Positions 1,625-9,493 of a stretch of DNA of 29,833 nt are shown piece by piece. Position 1 is the stretch's first letter. Every line of letters begins with the position of its first letter. The stretch spans positions 1 through 29,833 of IMG/VR virus record IMGVR_UViG_3300048929_000791, one strand, 5' to 3'. Source of the DNA: a virus. The position numbers and the translations under genes are program-made. The notes beneath the pieces were generated by a model, which saw nothing but the letters and a program-made list of their open reading frames with translations, did not search any database and was not told the origin of the DNA.

Positions 1625-2410
1625 TTACGAATTAACTTTAGGTTGTCCAGATGCTACACGTAAGGCATCCGCTATACGTCCAATACGGTCTTTTGTTGTT
1701 TGGTCTGTAGCTTCTTCCCACGCTTTTTTAAGATAGTCTATAGCGGCGTTTGCGTGCGTTACAGATAGAGTGTATTTTTGTTCTGACACTTTAACCCCTC
1801 CATTTTTAATGCGGTCTACCTCTGCCTTTACAGCAGGGACAAAGCCTTTATTAGCCGCTACCTTTGTATTGCCATCACCCCAAAATAAAGTGCCTGGGCA
1901 TGTCTTACTTGACTTGCCTTGTACATAATCCCCTAACCATGTGCCACTTGCTGTATACCAAGCGTGATAAACGATATGGGACGTATCTACAGGTATATTT
2001 AGTTTGATAGCTAGACAAGCATACAAGTGCGTTACAGCCTGTTTCTGTGCCGCTGTCATGATGTTACCGCCCTTATCAAAGTTACCTATAATCTCTACGC
2101 ATAGTGCGCCTGTGTTGGCTCCTTTAATGCCAGCAGGGGTTTTATTTAAGTCACGATCTAAACTAATAGCTATCTTTCCATCCTCAAATACTGTGATGTT
2201 TTGCCCTGTTGCGCTCCATCCATTACGCAAATGAGTGTTACGCATACCTTCCAAGCATTTAAAATGGTCTTGGTTAACTCTAGTAGAGTAATTGGGTAAC
2301 CACGTATGGTGAACCTGCAGTTTTGTTATAGGACGTGTAATCTTTTGGTTATCAAGCCACCCTTTAAATTCGGATGGATCCATTAATAAGAAGTTGCCTT
2401 TAGTAATCAC
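1625..2410 (-). CDS. Endolysin: N-acetylmuramoyl-L-alanine amidase (Amidase_2)
   Basis: 261 residues. It should cleave the amide bond between N-acetylmuramic acid and the stem peptide, lysing the host at the end of infection. Zinc ligands of the Amidase_2/PGRP fold are apparent: His34 or His35 in LQVHHTW, His149 in HIVYHAW and Cys171 in KTCPG. The catalytic domain spans about 20-200. The remaining 60 residues are helical and charged (…AAIDYLKKAWEEATD…) and probably serve as a wall-binding or linker tail. The GTG start at 2410-2408 overlaps the holin stop as GTGA, so translation is coupled to the holin. No signal peptide is visible, which fits export through the holin. A terminator follows directly. 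Confidence 0.9.
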   Translation of the reverse strand: MITKGNFLLMDPSEFKGWLDNQKITRPITKLQVHHTWLPNYSTRVNQDHFKCLEGMRNTHLRNGWSATGQNITVFEDGKIAISLDRDLNKTPAGIKGANTGALCVEIIGNFDKGGNIMTAAQKQAVTHLYACLAIKLNIPVDTSHIVYHAWYTASGTWLGDYVQGKSSKTCPGTLFWGDGNTKVAANKGFVPAVKAEVDRIKNGGVKVSEQKYTLSVTHANAAIDYLKKAWEEATDQTTKDRIGRIADALRVASGQPKVNS

Positions 2411-2805
2411 TTGCGATCACCAGACTTCCCTTTCAGGACTTCAACCATTTGCACAATAGCTGGTGGTATAGGTGCGCCAAGCTTGCCTCCATTTTCAATG
2501 ATGCTCAATACCTCGTTTGCGATATAAAAATAAGCCGCCGCATCACGAAACATATGAGCATCACCTAAGATACCATCCACTAAATGTGCTACAGCTACCA
2601 TTGCAAAAATAAAAACTTTACGGGCAATGCCGATCATACCTACTTTACTTTTTAATTCCCCTGCTGATCCAGCCGCCGCTACTCCTGTTAAAAAGTCCAC
2701 CACTACAAATACAAGTAATGCACTAAGCACACCAGACCAACCACCAAATAAATACGTTGTGACACTTACTGTAAAGGCTCCTAACCATTTTAAAACTTCA
2801 TTCAT
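2407..2805 (-). CDS. Holin, phage_holin_4-type
   Basis: 132 residues with three predicted membrane segments, near 5-22, 25-47 and 60-82, and a polar C-terminus (KGKSGDRK). The pattern FVVVDFLTG…SAGELKSKVG…RKVFIFAMVAVAHLVD is characteristic of the phi-Cp1/TcdE-like holin family. It should oligomerise in the cytoplasmic membrane and set the time of lysis. ATG at 2805-2803 has AAGGGG 7 nt upstream. The amidase start overlaps its stop, forming the classic two-gene lysis cassette. Confidence 0.88.
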   Translation of the reverse strand: MNEVLKWLGAFTVSVTTYLFGGWSGVLSALLVFVVVDFLTGVAAAGSAGELKSKVGMIGIARKVFIFAMVAVAHLVDGILGDAHMFRDAAAYFYIANEVLSIIENGGKLGAPIPPAIVQMVEVLKGKSGDRK

Positions 2806-2859: not shown

Positions 2860-5800
2860 TTACTTCTTCATATATTTGTTTGCTAGTTCGTTACCCGTTT
2901 CTGCGTAGTTGTTTATTTTTTCTTGGAGTTCTCGTAAACGGTCACGTTTTGTCGCATTACTCATATCGGTATCGTTTTGTACGTCTCTGATTTCTTTGCG
3001 CACACTTGACATGCTTTTACTTATCTTATTCATTCGTTTTCGTAGTGGATCGCTATACCAATCAGGTAATTTTTTAAATTCTCTGTCCGCATATGCTTGA
3101 TCAAGCTTATCTTTGTTTTCATAAAATTTACTTGATAAATCGTTGCTAAACGTTGAATCAGCTACCATTGTGCTTGCAAGGGATGAACCTAGATCACCAC
3201 CAGGAGTAAGTAACGGTAATGCTAATTGACCTAAACCGCCTGTATATTGTTTTAATAGATAATCTATTTTTTTAGGCGAGTATCCAAGCATCTCGCCTAG
3301 CTTGATTGCTGGTGTTGATGTTTTGGCATCTGACTGTAATTCAGGGGATAAACGCTCTAAGTTACCTGGAACAATTGGCGATCCGTTCCATGATTTATTG
3401 GCTACTGTTTGTACAGCAGCACCAAAAATCGTATCATTTAACACTCCTGAAATTACGTCTTTGCCATCAACTAAACCTTTTATGCCAGGAGGCAATAACG
3501 TATCTTTTAACCTGTCTGCAAAGTCCCTAAAGGCGTCGGGGTCTTCCTCGTAAAACGCACGCATAAGACGTTCGGGAAGGTCTGCAAACACTGTTCCTTG
3601 CTCCTGAGGTTTGGCGATTTTCAGGAACTTTCCATTTCCTAAAGGGATGTTAAAGAAAGCATCCTTTGTGCGATTGCTCAGCTTTTGATAATCTGGGTTG
3701 TCATAGTTAAGTGCATATAAAGCCATGGCAGGCAAAGACATAGATAAGGCCGTTTTAGTTAATGCTTTTACAGGATTATCTTTGTATACACGTGCGATTT
3801 GATCCATCCCCTGTAAAGCAGCGTTGAAATATGGAAAAACCTTATCAAATTGTCTAGTTAATGTTCCTCTACGTTTAAAGTTAGTAGTTACGTCTTGGGC
3901 AGCGTATAAAGCCTTTTGGATGTCTCCCGACATTTTTCCAGTACGCTTAAATTCCGCTAATCTCGGAGCAACCTCCACAGCATTAAGAAAGTTTTCATAT
4001 GCTCTGTATCCCTTTGGTAACGCTCCTTTAAGTGGATTGTTATTGGGTAGGATAGCCCCCTTGCTTTGCGCCATTAAATTACGATTAGCAGCGATAGGCG
4101 AAGCGTGGCCACCACCGATATTTAAATATTGTTTATAGGCATCCTTTTTAAATAAGGTTTCATATGCCGCTGCAATCAAATCACCTGCAAACTTAATGGG
4201 ATTGCTGGTTGTTTTTGATGCAATATATGCTTGTGGAATGTCTCTAAATAAATTTCGTGTCAATGAAAACACTGGGTTACTCCCAGTTGTTAAGTTCTTC
4301 ATTACATTTGTAAGACTACCGACCTTATCAAGCAACCAAACTCCTTGTTCTGGCCCTAATGCTGTGATTGCGTTTAGCAATGCTTGGTCTTTGATCTTAA
4401 CGTGTACCGGTTCACCGTTTACCAAGACTCGAACAATATTGTCTCTATCTAGTCTTGTTTTTTGGAATCCTGCATCAAAATCACTTGCAAATCTATCCAG
4501 CACCTCATCTATTCCATCGCCGTCCAAAAGCATCTTTGTAATGTCATCTACCTTTTCGGGCTGTTTAACAATCTCCGCCCAATCAGCAAACGCTTCTGGA
4601 TTTGCTTCGATGTTTTTAACATACTGTTGCATTACCTTGTTTCGCTTAGCCGTTTTAACAAAAGCGTCTACGTTTTCAATAGTTGCTTCAATAGGGCTGA
4701 TGATCTTCTGCTGTCCTCCGCCTTTGCTGTATCCCTTGATAGGCACGCTTTGACCGCCGAAACCTTGCTTGGATTTGGTTATTCCTCTACTTCCTTTTTC
4801 AAGCTCTGTAAAGGATCGCTTGTTAGGCACGTAGTAAGGGTTAGCGTCAAACATGGCTTGTGCTTGTTGCGGTGTAATAATCCCCTCGTCAACCATCCAA
4901 GTTTGTACCATGTTGCGATTAAATTCATATAGCTTGTCAGCGGTGTCTCTGAACTCAGGGAACATCGCTTCATACTCTGCCACTTTCTGCGATCCATATT
5001 CAGGCGTCCAATTAAGAGAGTCCCTAAATACTTTTTCACCACGTTCGGCACGAGTAATGGCGTGCTTGTTCAAAAGATAGTCCTCAAAGTCAACATAGAT
5101 GTTTTTGTATTTGGTTCCTTGTTGCTTGGGTAATCCCTTTAAAATATCCTTTAAGCTCTCCCCGACCACATTCCCGTTTGCATCAACAAGACCATCCGTA
5201 ATAATTCGCTTAGAAATCACATCTGCCCCACGACTTCCCAACGCTAATGTATGAGTGCGTTGTGATGCTGGTAACTCTTTGCCCATAATCTGTTCCAACA
5301 TTTTATCCTGTTGGTTAAGTGGATTAAGATCATCAAATAAGGCTGTATACATTTTATTCAGCCAATTAGTTAATGATTTAGGTTCCTTGACTTGTCTTGT
5401 GGTTAATTGGCTACGTGTATCTGTACTAAGGCTATCATAGGGTTTGATCTTGGAGTTTGGCATGATACCTATGCCTGTTTGCTCCTGAAATTGTCCTGGT
5501 CTTAAAATAGGTTGCGCGTTTGGATCAAATGCAGGTAATTCAGGTTGTGCAGGAGCTATTAGCGCGTTATCTGTTTGATTGCTTATAGTTGATGTTGGTC
5601 TTTCTACAACGGCGTTAGAGGGCAATTCTGTGTTTCTAGCAACCTGACCAATTCCTTTATCAACCGCATTGCCTCCACCTTTTATAAGTCGCTTAATCCC
5701 AGATGCAACAGCAGGCACAGCACCACCCAATCCTGCGCCAAATGCACTACCTAATAAAGCTGATTCAGCAAGTTCACTATTAGTGCGTTCGGGATTCATT

Positions 5801-6663
5801 TGTAAGTCTAAAGCAGGCGATTGCAACCCTCCTGCTAAACCTTCCCTTACAACACCACTTGCCACGGCGTTAGTGGTATTAGGATTCATTACCTTTCCTA
5901 ATCCATTTGCTAAGCCACGCTCAACCGCTGATCCCACTCTAGTTCCTTGTATTAGTGCGTCAGCCGCTTTATAAGGAGCGACCAAGGGACCACTACCAAT
6001 AGGCGCGCCTGTGGGCTGTGCCACTGACATTAACGACCTAATAATATCCGTTGTTTTATCCAATGCTTTATTCCCTGTTGATTCCCGAATAACCATGTTG
6101 TCATCAGATGGTAATGATCTTGTTATGGTACGCCCTACAGGGTTTCCGTAAAAAGCCCAATCAATAGCATTAGGAACGGCATTTACCCAATCTGGATTTC
6201 CGTCTAACTCCCTCTCTTGTATCCTTCTCTCATATTCTGTTTTAGGTGTTAGGTTACGTCCGAACGCTTGATTCTGTTGCAATAGATTAGCTACTGGATC
6301 ATTATTTCTCTGCAGCATATTAGGAACAGAATTACTAACAGAAGATGCAGGCGGCGAACCTGCATCCATGCGACTGATTGGGTTAAAGTTTGATGAGTCT
6401 ATATAATTTCTAGCTTGCGCTTCTTTTTGTGCTTTGTCTTTTGCTGCCTGTTCTCTTAATCCAAACAGGTTAACGGGGTTTAGTATTTCTTTAGCTATAC
6501 GTTCGTTTTGTTGTTTCTCTAGTGAACGTTTTTCTTGGGCTGCGCGCGAAGCGGCGGTACGTTTGTTTACGGGCTGTGATGTACTGATATTATCCATTTC
6601 ACCACTTAAGATTTTACGCTTAAACTCACGCCCTAGCTCTCTACCTTCTTTTGGTGATAACAT
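2860..6663 (-). CDS. Very large internal virion / DNA-ejection protein (polyvalent-type, LPD38-like)
   Basis: 1267 residues, the largest product in the window. ATG at 6663-6661 shares one base with the stop of the lysozyme gene (TAATG), and GGGGAG lies 9 nt upstream. The N-terminal ~350 residues are Q/N/P-rich and low complexity, with a glycine/alanine hydrophobic stretch near 300-330 (SAFGAGLGGAVPAVASGIKR) that could insert in a membrane. The region around 900-1020 (…FPYFNAALQGMDQIARVYKD…, …FFNIPLGNGKFLKIAKP) resembles the 'large polyvalent protein-associated' LPD38 domain of phage proteins injected with DNA. The C-terminus is a charged coiled coil. Its place after the tail genes and beside a lysozyme mirrors T7 gp15/gp16-type ejection proteins. 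The domain name is from memory; the role is inference. Confidence 0.75.
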   Translation of the reverse strand: MLSPKEGRELGREFKRKILSGEMDNISTSQPVNKRTAASRAAQEKRSLEKQQNERIAKEILNPVNLFGLREQAAKDKAQKEAQARNYIDSSNFNPISRMDAGSPPASSVSNSVPNMLQRNNDPVANLLQQNQAFGRNLTPKTEYERRIQERELDGNPDWVNAVPNAIDWAFYGNPVGRTITRSLPSDDNMVIRESTGNKALDKTTDIIRSLMSVAQPTGAPIGSGPLVAPYKAADALIQGTRVGSAVERGLANGLGKVMNPNTTNAVASGVVREGLAGGLQSPALDLQMNPERTNSELAESALLGSAFGAGLGGAVPAVASGIKRLIKGGGNAVDKGIGQVARNTELPSNAVVERPTSTISNQTDNALIAPAQPELPAFDPNAQPILRPGQFQEQTGIGIMPNSKIKPYDSLSTDTRSQLTTRQVKEPKSLTNWLNKMYTALFDDLNPLNQQDKMLEQIMGKELPASQRTHTLALGSRGADVISKRIITDGLVDANGNVVGESLKDILKGLPKQQGTKYKNIYVDFEDYLLNKHAITRAERGEKVFRDSLNWTPEYGSQKVAEYEAMFPEFRDTADKLYEFNRNMVQTWMVDEGIITPQQAQAMFDANPYYVPNKRSFTELEKGSRGITKSKQGFGGQSVPIKGYSKGGGQQKIISPIEATIENVDAFVKTAKRNKVMQQYVKNIEANPEAFADWAEIVKQPEKVDDITKMLLDGDGIDEVLDRFASDFDAGFQKTRLDRDNIVRVLVNGEPVHVKIKDQALLNAITALGPEQGVWLLDKVGSLTNVMKNLTTGSNPVFSLTRNLFRDIPQAYIASKTTSNPIKFAGDLIAAAYETLFKKDAYKQYLNIGGGHASPIAANRNLMAQSKGAILPNNNPLKGALPKGYRAYENFLNAVEVAPRLAEFKRTGKMSGDIQKALYAAQDVTTNFKRRGTLTRQFDKVFPYFNAALQGMDQIARVYKDNPVKALTKTALSMSLPAMALYALNYDNPDYQKLSNRTKDAFFNIPLGNGKFLKIAKPQEQGTVFADLPERLMRAFYEEDPDAFRDFADRLKDTLLPPGIKGLVDGKDVISGVLNDTIFGAAVQTVANKSWNGSPIVPGNLERLSPELQSDAKTSTPAIKLGEMLGYSPKKIDYLLKQYTGGLGQLALPLLTPGGDLGSSLASTMVADSTFSNDLSSKFYENKDKLDQAYADREFKKLPDWYSDPLRKRMNKISKSMSSVRKEIRDVQNDTDMSNATKRDRLRELQEKINNYAETGNELANKYMKK

Positions 6664-7250
6664 TAGTAACCACTCCCCAGCATTTTAAATGCGTCTTTCA
6701 ATTCAGACTTAAATCGATTTACTACACCCTTACGAACTGCTTCTGATGATGAAGGGAAATATTTTTTTCCGTTATTAGCCGATCTTTCTTGGTATACCCT
6801 TCTAATAATTTCAGCATCAGACATACTTGGTGTAACACCAGCATTCCTCAAAATTTTATTTGCTCCACTCTGTCCATGTTGTACTGCAGTACTCCATATA
6901 GCGTTCTGAACAGCTATTGAACGGTTGTTTACATCTAAACCAGTGCTTTTTTTAATTGATGCTACAGCAGGTGAATAAAATCTTTGCTGTATAAAATCAT
7001 GCTGATATTTCTCAAAACTCCCTACAGATGCAGCCCGTTTCCACGCTTTATCAAAATCGGTAGAACCTACGGTTTTGCCTGCAAACAGTTCGTAAATAGT
7101 GGGATTTGCAACACGCAAGTAGTTTACAAATGACTGTGCTGATCCTGTATTTTTAGTGAGTTGATACAATCCGTAGCTAGCACCACCTGGGTCACCCTTC
7201 GTTCGGCTGATCGTTGCAGAGTTACCACTAGCTTCATACTTTCTTGACAA
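6663..7250 (-). CDS. Virion-associated peptidoglycan hydrolase (lysozyme-like)
   Basis: 195 residues from a TTG at 7250-7248, the only usable start in this frame. The opening LSRKYEASGN…GDPGGASYGLYQL matches the glutamate-containing lysozyme/transglycosylase-like domain of VgrG-related and phage tail-tip proteins. Glu6 is the candidate catalytic acid, and the GDPGG-SYG-YQL signature is strong. It probably opens a local hole in the wall during DNA injection. The domain appears to begin upstream of the TTG (GAIGQ precedes LSRKYE in the same open frame). That same frame is entered by a -1 slip at the end of the 494-aa gene, so this product may be made as a fusion (see the frameshift site). GGAG 11 nt before TTG is a possible but hairpin-buried ribosome site. 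The stop overlaps the next gene. Confidence 0.75.
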   Translation of the reverse strand: MSRKYEASGNSATISRTKGDPGGASYGLYQLTKNTGSAQSFVNYLRVANPTIYELFAGKTVGSTDFDKAWKRAASVGSFEKYQHDFIQQRFYSPAVASIKKSTGLDVNNRSIAVQNAIWSTAVQHGQSGANKILRNAGVTPSMSDAEIIRRVYQERSANNGKKYFPSSSEAVRKGVVNRFKSELKDAFKMLGSGY

Positions 7251-7258
7251 TTGCCCAA

Positions 7259-7295
7259 TAGCTCCATTGGTGGTTTTGGAGCTAGTTAGTTTTTT
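7259..7295 (-). promoter_or_regulatory. Candidate -1 programmed frameshift site (A AAA AAC + stem-loop)
   Basis: Reading minus, the 494-aa gene ends TCA AAA AAC TAA. Positions 7295-7289 form the canonical slippery heptamer A AAA AAC in the correct phase, followed at once by the 0-frame stop (7288-7286). Four bases after the heptamer a perfect 7-bp stem begins: TAGCTCC (7284-7278) with GGAGCTA (7265-7259) and a 12-nt loop. After a -1 shift the ribosome reads CTA ACT AGC… into the lysozyme frame with no stop, giving a ~700-residue fusion. The spacer is slightly short compared with classic sites. The stem also hides the GGAG of the TTG start. Confidence 0.6.
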
Positions 7296-8770
7296 GATTT
7301 TTTTAAATCTTCGTTATAAAGATTATCAACATCTTCTTTCGTTAAACCTAACGCGAATAATGCTTGGTCATCTAGTCCATCGGGCATATTCATGCCAGCT
7401 ACATAATCATAAATTCTGCGCTTTGTTTCAGGATCGTTAGGGATTGTTATGTTATCTCCATCACCTTGTCCAAATAATTTTGTGGCTGAACTTACAACTT
7501 GAGGAATGCTCATGCCTGCATACTTTCCGTTTTGTCCCATCTGCCAACCAAATGTAGCCCAATCTCTCAAGCTTCCATCTTCTTGTGCTTCTCGTTGCAA
7601 CGCTAGTCGTGCTTGATCGTTGCTGAGATTACCCAATTGGACTTGTTGGTTAAGCGCAAATTGCAAACCAAACTGACTAACATCACGATCAAACTGAGCT
7701 TTCCATTGTTGATCTTGGATGAGGTCTCTAGCTTGTTGGTACCCAAATTGTTGTTTAGAGAAGTCTTGGTTAAACTGTTGTCCTTGTCTTGCAAGGTCAA
7801 GTTGTTGTCCTTGTAATGTTCTAATTCCTTGGTTGTTATTTCTAGCAGTAGCAGAGCTTACGTTAGCTCCATAACCGCTTGGATCAATCCCTAATGCTTG
7901 TAACTGTGCTCTAATAGCATCAGCTTGTTTACTTAGTCCTGACCGTTCCTGCGCTGTTATTCCTGGGCTCTCTGCTTGTTGTTTTAAATTAAGTAAATTG
8001 GTAATTGCTTGCCTTGCTTCACCAGGTAAATAATTCCCTGTTAGTTCAGCTTCTTGCATTGGTCTAGTTACATCATATTGATATTGATTAGCAAATAGAT
8101 TAGCAAGATTACTTAATTGATCTTGTTGTGCGCCATAGTTTAATTGTTGTACTTGTAAATCACGATTAGCATTATCGGTATAGCGTTGATATGCTTGATT
8201 CATGAGCGTTGGAACTAAGTTGTTAGCAATGCTGTCCATGGCATTAGTTCCAATCTGATTGGCTACTGATTCGCTCCATGACGATTTGCCTTGTCCTGTT
8301 GCTCTCAACTGTGCATTAGTATTTGATTGCTGAGTAGCAACGTTCTTTCTTGCTTCGGCTAGTTGTGATATATATGCTGGATCATTTTGTGGATCATAAG
8401 TAAATTCTGTCGGCCCCTTAAATTGATATGGTAGTTGCTTAGCAAAATCACCCATACTATTCAGAGTTGAATCTGCTCTACTCGTAGGTGGTGTGTACAC
8501 CGCTTGCTGTGTGGTGTTTTGTGCAGCTTGTACCATTGGAGATACATTTGGTTCTTTGTAACCCAAGTTAACGTTTAAATATTTTTGCTGTGCAGATGTA
8601 TCCATACCTTGATTCTTACGGTTAGCAATCACTTGTAACGTTCTGTTAATTTCGTCTTGCTTGTATCCTTGGTTGTTAGCAATGTTGCTCTGATTCTGCA
8701 CTATCTTATTTCTGGTGTCCTTATTGGCTGTACCATAATTAGTACCGCCATATCCTAAGTTTGTTGCCAT
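7286..8770 (-). CDS. Q/N-rich internal virion (ejection) protein
   Basis: 494 residues from ATG 8770-8768, with GGGGTG about 4 nt upstream. An in-frame extension further upstream would run through the moron terminator, so I reject it. Composition is strikingly rich in Gln, Asn and Ala with little order predicted: GTNYGTANKDTRN at the start, then long stretches such as RDLQVQQLNYGAQQDQLSNL and TLQGQQLDLARQGQQFNQDF. Such sequence is usual in podoviral internal core proteins that must unfold to pass through the portal. I recognise no named domain. It is the first of three consecutive ejection-type genes, and its 3' end carries the putative -1 frameshift signal joining it to the lysozyme-like domain. 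Confidence 0.65.
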   Translation of the reverse strand: MATNLGYGGTNYGTANKDTRNKIVQNQSNIANNQGYKQDEINRTLQVIANRKNQGMDTSAQQKYLNVNLGYKEPNVSPMVQAAQNTTQQAVYTPPTSRADSTLNSMGDFAKQLPYQFKGPTEFTYDPQNDPAYISQLAEARKNVATQQSNTNAQLRATGQGKSSWSESVANQIGTNAMDSIANNLVPTLMNQAYQRYTDNANRDLQVQQLNYGAQQDQLSNLANLFANQYQYDVTRPMQEAELTGNYLPGEARQAITNLLNLKQQAESPGITAQERSGLSKQADAIRAQLQALGIDPSGYGANVSSATARNNNQGIRTLQGQQLDLARQGQQFNQDFSKQQFGYQQARDLIQDQQWKAQFDRDVSQFGLQFALNQQVQLGNLSNDQARLALQREAQEDGSLRDWATFGWQMGQNGKYAGMSIPQVVSSATKLFGQGDGDNITIPNDPETKRRIYDYVAGMNMPDGLDDQALFALGLTKEDVDNLYNEDLKKSKN

Positions 8771-8820: not shown

Positions 8821-9002
8821 CTCTTTGATTTTTCTTCTTTATGGTCTGCGTATTTCCTACACACCCATGCAATTAAACATAAAACAGCTATTACGCTATA
8901 CATCAGCACAGGAGAAGTTGCAATAAAACCACCAACGGCGATAAGAAGCCACAAAACAGGTATACCTATAACATAAGAAATAACTGTTTTGAGCTTCTTC
9001 AT
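8805..9002 (-). CDS. Small two-TM membrane protein (moron)
   Basis: 65 residues, ATG 9002-9000 overlapping the stop of the stalk-domain gene as ATGA. There are two hydrophobic helices, near 8-30 (ISYVIGIPVLWLLIAVGGFI) and 33-48, then a strongly basic/charged tail (CRKYADHKEEKSKRKSPQ). The positive tail predicts both ends on the cytoplasmic side. No family recognised. It shares a promoter and terminator with the secreted stalk-domain protein, so the two probably form a lysogenic-conversion unit acting at the cell envelope. Confidence 0.7.
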   Translation of the reverse strand: MKKLKTVISYVIGIPVLWLLIAVGGFIATSPVLMYSVIAVLCLIAWVCRKYADHKEEKSKRKSPQ

Positions 9003-9493
9003 TTAAGTTTAGCTTGGAGTTCTTTAAGTTCATTTTGTAATTCAGTAAGTTTCTGTTTTTGCTTATCTAAGTTTTTCATTAAAGCATCTTTGCTAATGCT
9101 CTCAGCAAAAGCTTTATACCCATCTTCCTCTATTGCTTTTATTGTCACTTCAAAATCGCTTATGCTTGACTCTAAATTTAAAATCCTATTTTCGGTATTG
9201 TCTATTTCATTTTTTACTTTTTCTATTTCTTTTTTGATTGGGTTTTCTGTGGTTAAGGCGATTGAGCCATCTTTATCAAAGGATATAGTCGCTCCGATTT
9301 TACTTGAAATGTCCCTGACTGGCAAAAAGCTCTTACCATCAATAATAACCGCCTTGCCAGCTTCTTCACCGTTAACCTTTACTGTAGTTTCACTTGAAAC
9401 TTTTTTTCCAATATATCCAATTCCAGCCGCAAAAGATTGAGTACCTATCATTAGTAAGGCACCAACAATAATGCCCGTTATAAACTTTTTCAC
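8999..9493 (-). CDS. Secreted stalk-domain (copper amine oxidase N-terminal-like) protein (moron)
   Basis: 164 residues from a GTG at 9493-9491, with a GAGGGG ribosome site 7 nt upstream. Residues 1-22 form a signal peptide (KKFITGIIVGALLMIGTQSFA with AxA-type cleavage). Residues about 36-82 (VNGEEAGKAVIIDGKSFLPVRDISSKIGA…) match the short β-stalk domain often annotated as copper amine oxidase N-terminal, which is common on Paenibacillaceae surface proteins. The last 75 residues form a Lys/Glu coiled coil (EIEKVKNEIDNTENRILNLE…). It is not a virion gene: it has its own promoter at 9524-9552 and terminator at 8793-8820. It could alter the host envelope or block superinfection; that is inference. 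Confidence 0.75.
   Translation of the reverse strand: MKKFITGIIVGALLMIGTQSFAAGIGYIGKKVSSETTVKVNGEEAGKAVIIDGKSFLPVRDISSKIGATISFDKDGSIALTTENPIKKEIEKVKNEIDNTENRILNLESSISDFEVTIKAIEEDGYKAFAESISKDALMKNLDKQKQKLTELQNELKELQAKLK

Follow-up and report, generated by a model that had tools for sequence, protein, structure and literature searches.

A slippery heptamer and hairpin at the end of a Paenibacillus phage late gene point to ribosomal frameshifting into exchangeable lysozyme domains

The late gene examined here, called gene A, ends in an in-phase slippery heptamer that directly abuts its stop codon, is followed at close distance by a hairpin, and overlaps an open -1 frame coding for a lysozyme-type domain; it is highly likely that programmed -1 ribosomal frameshifting at this point would yield a long, enzyme-tipped form of the protein. 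The gene lies in a viral DNA of 29,833 nucleotides (IMG/VR record IMGVR_UViG_3300048929_000791), which was analysed over its whole length and is referred to as the window. Support for the proposal is drawn from sequence, namely the conservation of the heptamer, the fixed spacing of the hairpin, the open -1 frame, the absence of start codons for a separate enzyme, the existence of in-frame fusions, and the swapping of enzymes behind the site; from these we infer the occurrence and efficiency of the shift, the presence of the long form in virions, and a role in DNA entry. The relevant features of the window are as follows.

7286 to 8770, minus strand: gene A, 494 amino acids, predicted all-helical, Q/N-rich and of late virion type, with its ATG at 8770 and a zero-frame end of ...KKSKN-stop.
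7299 to 7305, minus strand: A_AAA_AAA, another heptamer in phase, which the ribosome reaches before the first; slippage on it would lead into the same -1 frame.
7289 to 7295, minus strand: slippery heptamer A_AAA_AAC, in phase and abutting TAA, as read from the sequence.
7286 to 7288, minus strand: zero-frame stop codon TAA, as read from the sequence.
7259 to 7284, minus strand: putative stimulatory hairpin TAGCTCCA-(10 nt)-TGGAGCTA, starting 4 nt after the heptamer.
7248 to 7250, minus strand: TTG, the only possible common in-frame start for a separate lysozyme, with GGAG 11 nt upstream, in the hairpin.
6663 to 7289, minus strand: -1 frame from the shift point, 208 amino acids, with a VgrG3-like muramidase domain (PF21277) by profile match.
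2860 to 6663, minus strand: next gene, a 1267-amino-acid protein with an LPD38 domain, homologous to large proteins of Bacillus phage Page and others.
1625 to 2805, minus strand: separate lysis module (holin and amidase endolysin), from matches in the window.

The 3' end of gene A reads GAT TT[A AAA AAA] TC[A AAA AAC] TAA, and the in-phase A AAA AAC that a preliminary description of this DNA had placed directly before the stop is thus indeed present. Read through this heptamer, the -1 frame begins LTSSKTTNGAIGQLSRKYE... and stays open for 208 codons, to position 6663; it matches the PF21277 profile (VgrG3-like_C) with an E-value of 9e-46 and 156.6 bits (cut-off 27), over positions 1-182 of 183, in agreement with the earlier claim that it runs into a lysozyme-like domain. 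The relatives of the appended domain in the PDB are 4NOO and 4NSO, and no viral relatives of the lysozyme were found in a scan with this single protein. In the proposed mechanism, most ribosomes would terminate gene A at the TAA, while a fraction would be held up by the hairpin when A_AAA_AAC occupies the P and A sites; the two tRNAs there would then re-pair one base back, bypass the stop and read 208 more codons, resulting in a predicted trans-frame product of 494+208 = 702 amino acids with a C-terminal muramidase. The junction peptide needs a correction, since simultaneous slippage of both tRNAs would produce ...KSKN-LTSSK, and the KSKKLTSSK junction suggested previously (KSKK-LTSSK) would arise only if the slip precedes decoding of the AAC.

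Relatives of gene A were retrieved by several routes. A first scan returned two, of about 34% identity, in both of which gene A ends in TC[G GGA AAC] TGA with a 9-bp hairpin at the same distance, and in both the -1 frame leads to a different enzyme, a glucosaminidase-type domain; the A1 profile scan added two more, with a transglycosylase-type domain. A scan for the pattern of heptamer plus stem returned 35 contigs, 28 of them with the architecture of gene A and a -1-frame lysozyme, and these were left out of the counts because such a scan selects for the signal. The counts given below therefore rest on gene A profile searches alone, not on the heptamer. These searches gave 10 matches in genome contigs, all Paenibacillus, and 60 loci in viral contigs; in the host family (Paenibacillaceae) 53 of 396 genomes were positive, and in a Bacillota-wide sample 2 of 398, both already among the host-family matches. 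After removal of duplicates, 95 distinct gene A homologues remained from the viral contigs and Paenibacillaceae genomes; L numbers below denote individual loci from the scans. In 78 of the 95, the overlapping -1 frame codes for a lysozyme-type domain; the rest consist of 8 called in-frame fusions, 8 loci with no enzyme domain nearby, and one with a broken frame (L067).

A canonical in-phase X XXY YYZ heptamer was found within the overlap in 64 of the 78, abutting the stop in 58, and its sequence includes GGGAAAC, GGGAAAG, GGGAAAA, AAAAAAC and CCCAAAC. A few of the canonical calls away from the stop, such as TTTAAAG 9 nt upstream in L168, may be due to chance. With G_GGG_GAG, which occurs in a further 12 of the 78, a slip-type heptamer is present in 76 of 78, although the homologues are related and such counts are not independent trials; L104 and L166 have a -1-frame lysozyme and no recognised heptamer. 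As controls, other ORFs of 150 or more codons from the same loci were used; among these, 1 of 338 ended in a canonical heptamer, and in no case was this combined with a -1 frame open for at least 100 codons. Slippage requires a particular base at the third position of the codon preceding the XXY YYZ pair, and this base is present irrespective of the amino acid encoded; where that is serine, the codon is TCG in 36 of 37 cases, TCG making up 12% of the serine codons in these genes. The second heptamer of the window, A_AAA_AAA, is not generally conserved. On this comparison, which the preliminary description had proposed, the slip-at-stop arrangement is a conserved feature of the family rather than an oddity of a single sequence, and is usually accompanied by the hairpin at its fixed spacing. 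Homologues with an ATG-started lysozyme and no heptamer, which the preliminary description had named as a refutation of its reading, were looked for, and the result was the opposite.

The G_GGG_GAG heptamer stands before the stop in L050, L086, L096, L097, L100, L103, L106-L108, L160 and L165, and 3 or 18 nt before it in L159 and L095. It is non-canonical, and unusual in that tRNA-Glu, once shifted, would have to form a G-U pair at the middle position; nevertheless, it apparently acts as the slip site of this subset of sequences, and one of its members, L050, has no start codon at all before the catalytic motif. Natural variants of the heptamer, G_GGG_GAG included, are thus available for slippage work in Bacillota. 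As a separate observation, the genes of L104 (at 5710) and L166 end in GTT TTT CAG TAG and GAG TTT TTT CAG TAG, respectively, with no canonical heptamer, and a strong 12-bp stem starts 2 nt from the stop.

The hairpin of the window pairs TAGCTCCA (7284-7277) with TGGAGCTA (7266-7259), and the segment from heptamer to hairpin folds with -13.4 kcal/mol (z -2.8). It had been described as a perfect 7-bp stem-loop 4 nt downstream; the spacing was right, and the stem is one pair longer, i.e., 8 bp. Among the 78 homologues with a -1-frame lysozyme, the best stem begins 4-7 nt past the heptamer in 70 and has at least 6 pairs in 67, a good hairpin being missing in a few homologues (L046, L068, L168). 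The stems of 6 bp or more comprise 23 distinct paired arm cores, as exemplified across phages by GCCCCA/TGGGGC, GCTCCG/CGGAGC, CCAGTG/CACTGG and CTGGCG/CGCCAG. Since loop lengths differ too much for a formal covariance model, arm-swapping was used, in which arms were exchanged with phages of a different 5' arm; the phages' own arms outpaired those from other phages (mean 7.6 bp; Wilcoxon p 2e-13). The stop is displaced downstream by 3-18 nt in L062, L105 and L095, and the distance from hairpin to heptamer is unchanged; the hairpin thus stays with the heptamer, as expected of a structure that stimulates frameshifting but not of one whose position is set by the stop. In a different gene (L013, at 5796, plus strand), a serine-rich protein ends in GGGGGAAAC TAA; the TAGCCCC hairpin is found after it as well, with a -1 frame open for 183 codons, possibly an unrelated frameshift.

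The lysozyme might instead be made as a separate protein from the TTG at 7250, by termination-reinitiation or from a weak ribosome-binding site of its own. The necessary elements are present in the window: as noted previously, the domain has no ATG, and this TTG is the sole start-type codon (ATG, GTG or TTG) before the catalytic region, with its weak GGAG 11 nt away and hidden in the stem's 3' arm. The PF21277 match starts at residue 11 of the -1 frame, 3 residues before the TTG, as was also anticipated, so that a start there would cost the domain only 3-4 profile residues. However, seven homologues of the same anatomy (L047, L048, L050, L058, L061, L073 and L078) lack any ATG, GTG or TTG before the catalytic motif, and the -1 codon at the stop varies among CTG, CTA, GTA and ATA while the heptamer is conserved, such that a concealed near-cognate start also lacks conservation. 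Moreover, gene A is fused in frame to an SLT domain in L060, L071, L076, L135 and L149, to a glucosaminidase-type domain in L139 and to a VgrG3-like domain in L091; L110, also among the eight fused calls, is a distant match to be read with caution. These fusions indicate that a protein of the fused kind is genuinely made. On all of these grounds, a separate start is very improbable. The fusions also place the enzyme on every copy in the eight called fusions, and a fixed minority ratio is therefore not strictly required.

Transcriptional slippage on the seven-A and six-A runs of the window (7289-7305) could also restore the frame, although such runs are short for polymerase slippage. Most relatives, however, have GGGAAAC, GGGAAAG or GGGGGAG, with no long homopolymer, and a downstream hairpin at fixed spacing suits ribosomal rather than transcriptional slippage, which leaves this explanation very unlikely. 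Least probable of all, to the point of being barely tenable, is that a frame error or pseudogene has split a once fused protein, for while fused forms do occur and the enzyme frame of L067 is truly broken, 78 distinct loci share one and the same relation between the two frames; almost every one of them has a heptamer, the heptamers vary in sequence, and the enzymes come from several unrelated families. In L067 (at 5791) the heptamer and hairpin are intact, and the enzyme frame is broken after 26 codons, the rest being in another frame.

Returning to programmed ribosomal frameshifting, the enzymes that follow the site have changed often. A tree of gene A with 90 rows, on which enzyme type was scored as six subtypes (several of them SLT subtypes), requires at least 41 changes of enzyme type, against 24 changes of heptamer sequence and 11 of the shifted, fused or none state. 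Two prophages of one Paenibacillus bouchesdurhonensis genome, L043 and L044, have gene A proteins that are 95% identical and enzymes that differ, VgrG3-like in one and SLT in the other, and similar pairs of near-alike gene A with different enzymes are L052/L084, L069/L073 and L096/L097. The persistence of the signal in front of swapped enzymes suggests that the shift site behaves as a junction for enzyme replacement, a socket behind which unrelated lysozyme domains would be exchanged. On balance, we favor the broader proposal that the frameshift site is an evolved socket. In this view, a junction conserved in the ejection protein of Paenibacillus phages would allow recombination to replace one peptidoglycan hydrolase by an unrelated one, while the slip signal would set the number of enzyme-bearing copies in the virion; such phages would possess an interchangeable virion lysin under the control of recoding.

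The late genes of the window are on the minus strand, in the order small and large terminase, portal, scaffold-like, capsid, neck and fibre genes, which are followed by gene A, the lysozyme frame, the LPD38 protein, holin and amidase. Also among the late structural genes, at 8999-9493 (minus strand), is a 164-amino-acid protein with a signal-like N-terminus and, as judged by eye, a copper-amine-oxidase-N-like sequence; its sole match is a PHROG of unknown function. The AlphaFold model of gene A is all-helical (pLDDT 82), with an 80-residue helix. Fold searches of the PDB and BFVD returned nothing significant, and no significant match to a known ejection protein was found by fold or sequence; thus, its assignment as an internal or ejection protein, which we regard as probable, derives from gene order and predicted helical make-up. 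Three queries of phage and plasmid records with gene A gave no match, and hence no link to a cultured phage with proteomics. Relatives of the LPD38 neighbor occur in Bacillus phage Page and allied phages, which we take to be podoviruses, and only podovirus relatives were seen. If gene A belongs, as seems most likely, to the internal or ejection-type proteins of short-tailed phages, its long form would be a virion-associated enzyme that takes wall-cutting activity to the site of infection. Since a holin and an amidase are encoded separately in the window, the appended enzyme is probably not the main lysis enzyme, and we infer that only a minority of gene A copies would carry it.

If true, the frameshift would mete out an enzyme, attached to a protein predicted to be internal to the virion, across a large, little-studied phage family, with the in-frame fusions as natural controls, and the reason for a phage to keep its enzyme-bearing copies sub-stoichiometric would become a testable question. 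Several of these lysozymes lack a start codon, and automatic prophage annotation will therefore miss or mis-start them. No description of a frameshift-appended lysozyme on a phage virion protein was found in the literature consulted, of which subscription journals formed a small part, and the portion of the Atkins frameshift review available to us contains no lysozyme case (PMC5009743). PRFect names lysins among frameshift-containing genes, in detail insufficient to equate them with the gene A arrangement (PMC10885494). The paper on the P. larvae podovirus API480, a phage absent among the portal matches of the window, does not mention frameshifting (PMC6937236).

When placed among known systems, gene A shares features with several. 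The T7 gp16-type ejection proteins carry a transglycosylase domain in every copy; gene A is similar in having a wall-cutting domain on a predicted internal or ejection protein of a short-tailed phage, but most of its relatives would add the enzyme by frameshift, and no homology of gene A to gp16 was found. Programmed frameshifting in phages is textbook knowledge for tail assembly chaperones. The lambda-type G/GT pair likewise uses a -1 shift, on heptamers of the GGGAAAG or GGGAAAC type; gene A differs in that it is not a chaperone, its extension is an enzyme, and it precedes the LPD38 protein in a window with no match to a tape measure or tail tube. Tail-chaperone-like genes turned up as bycatch in six loci, L009-L012, L024 and L030, with an identical GGGAAAC before TAA and an open -1 frame. 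The muramidase domain of Vibrio cholerae VgrG3 (PF21277, PDB 4NOO) matches that of the window over 170 residues (E 5e-19); in VgrG3, it extends a type VI secretion spike without any change of frame. In the portion of the review referred to above, A_AAA_AAC is described as less shift-prone than A_AAA_AAG in E. coli, and Ig-like C-terminal domains are listed as added by frameshift to the T3 coat protein and in Lactobacillus phage A2 and Listeria phages, the same kind of domain being sometimes obtained by in-frame decoding (PMC5009743). Gene A resembles these extensions, and that of T7 gene 10, in that a shift in a late gene would add a C-terminal domain to some copies. In contrast to the Ig-like extensions, its cargo consists of peptidoglycan-cutting enzymes of several unrelated families, and the Paenibacillus phage protein that carries it is predicted to be internal, with a single conserved type of site for exchangeable enzymes. 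We therefore rate the mechanism as known, and the class of cargo, the carrier and the modular exchange at the site as new.
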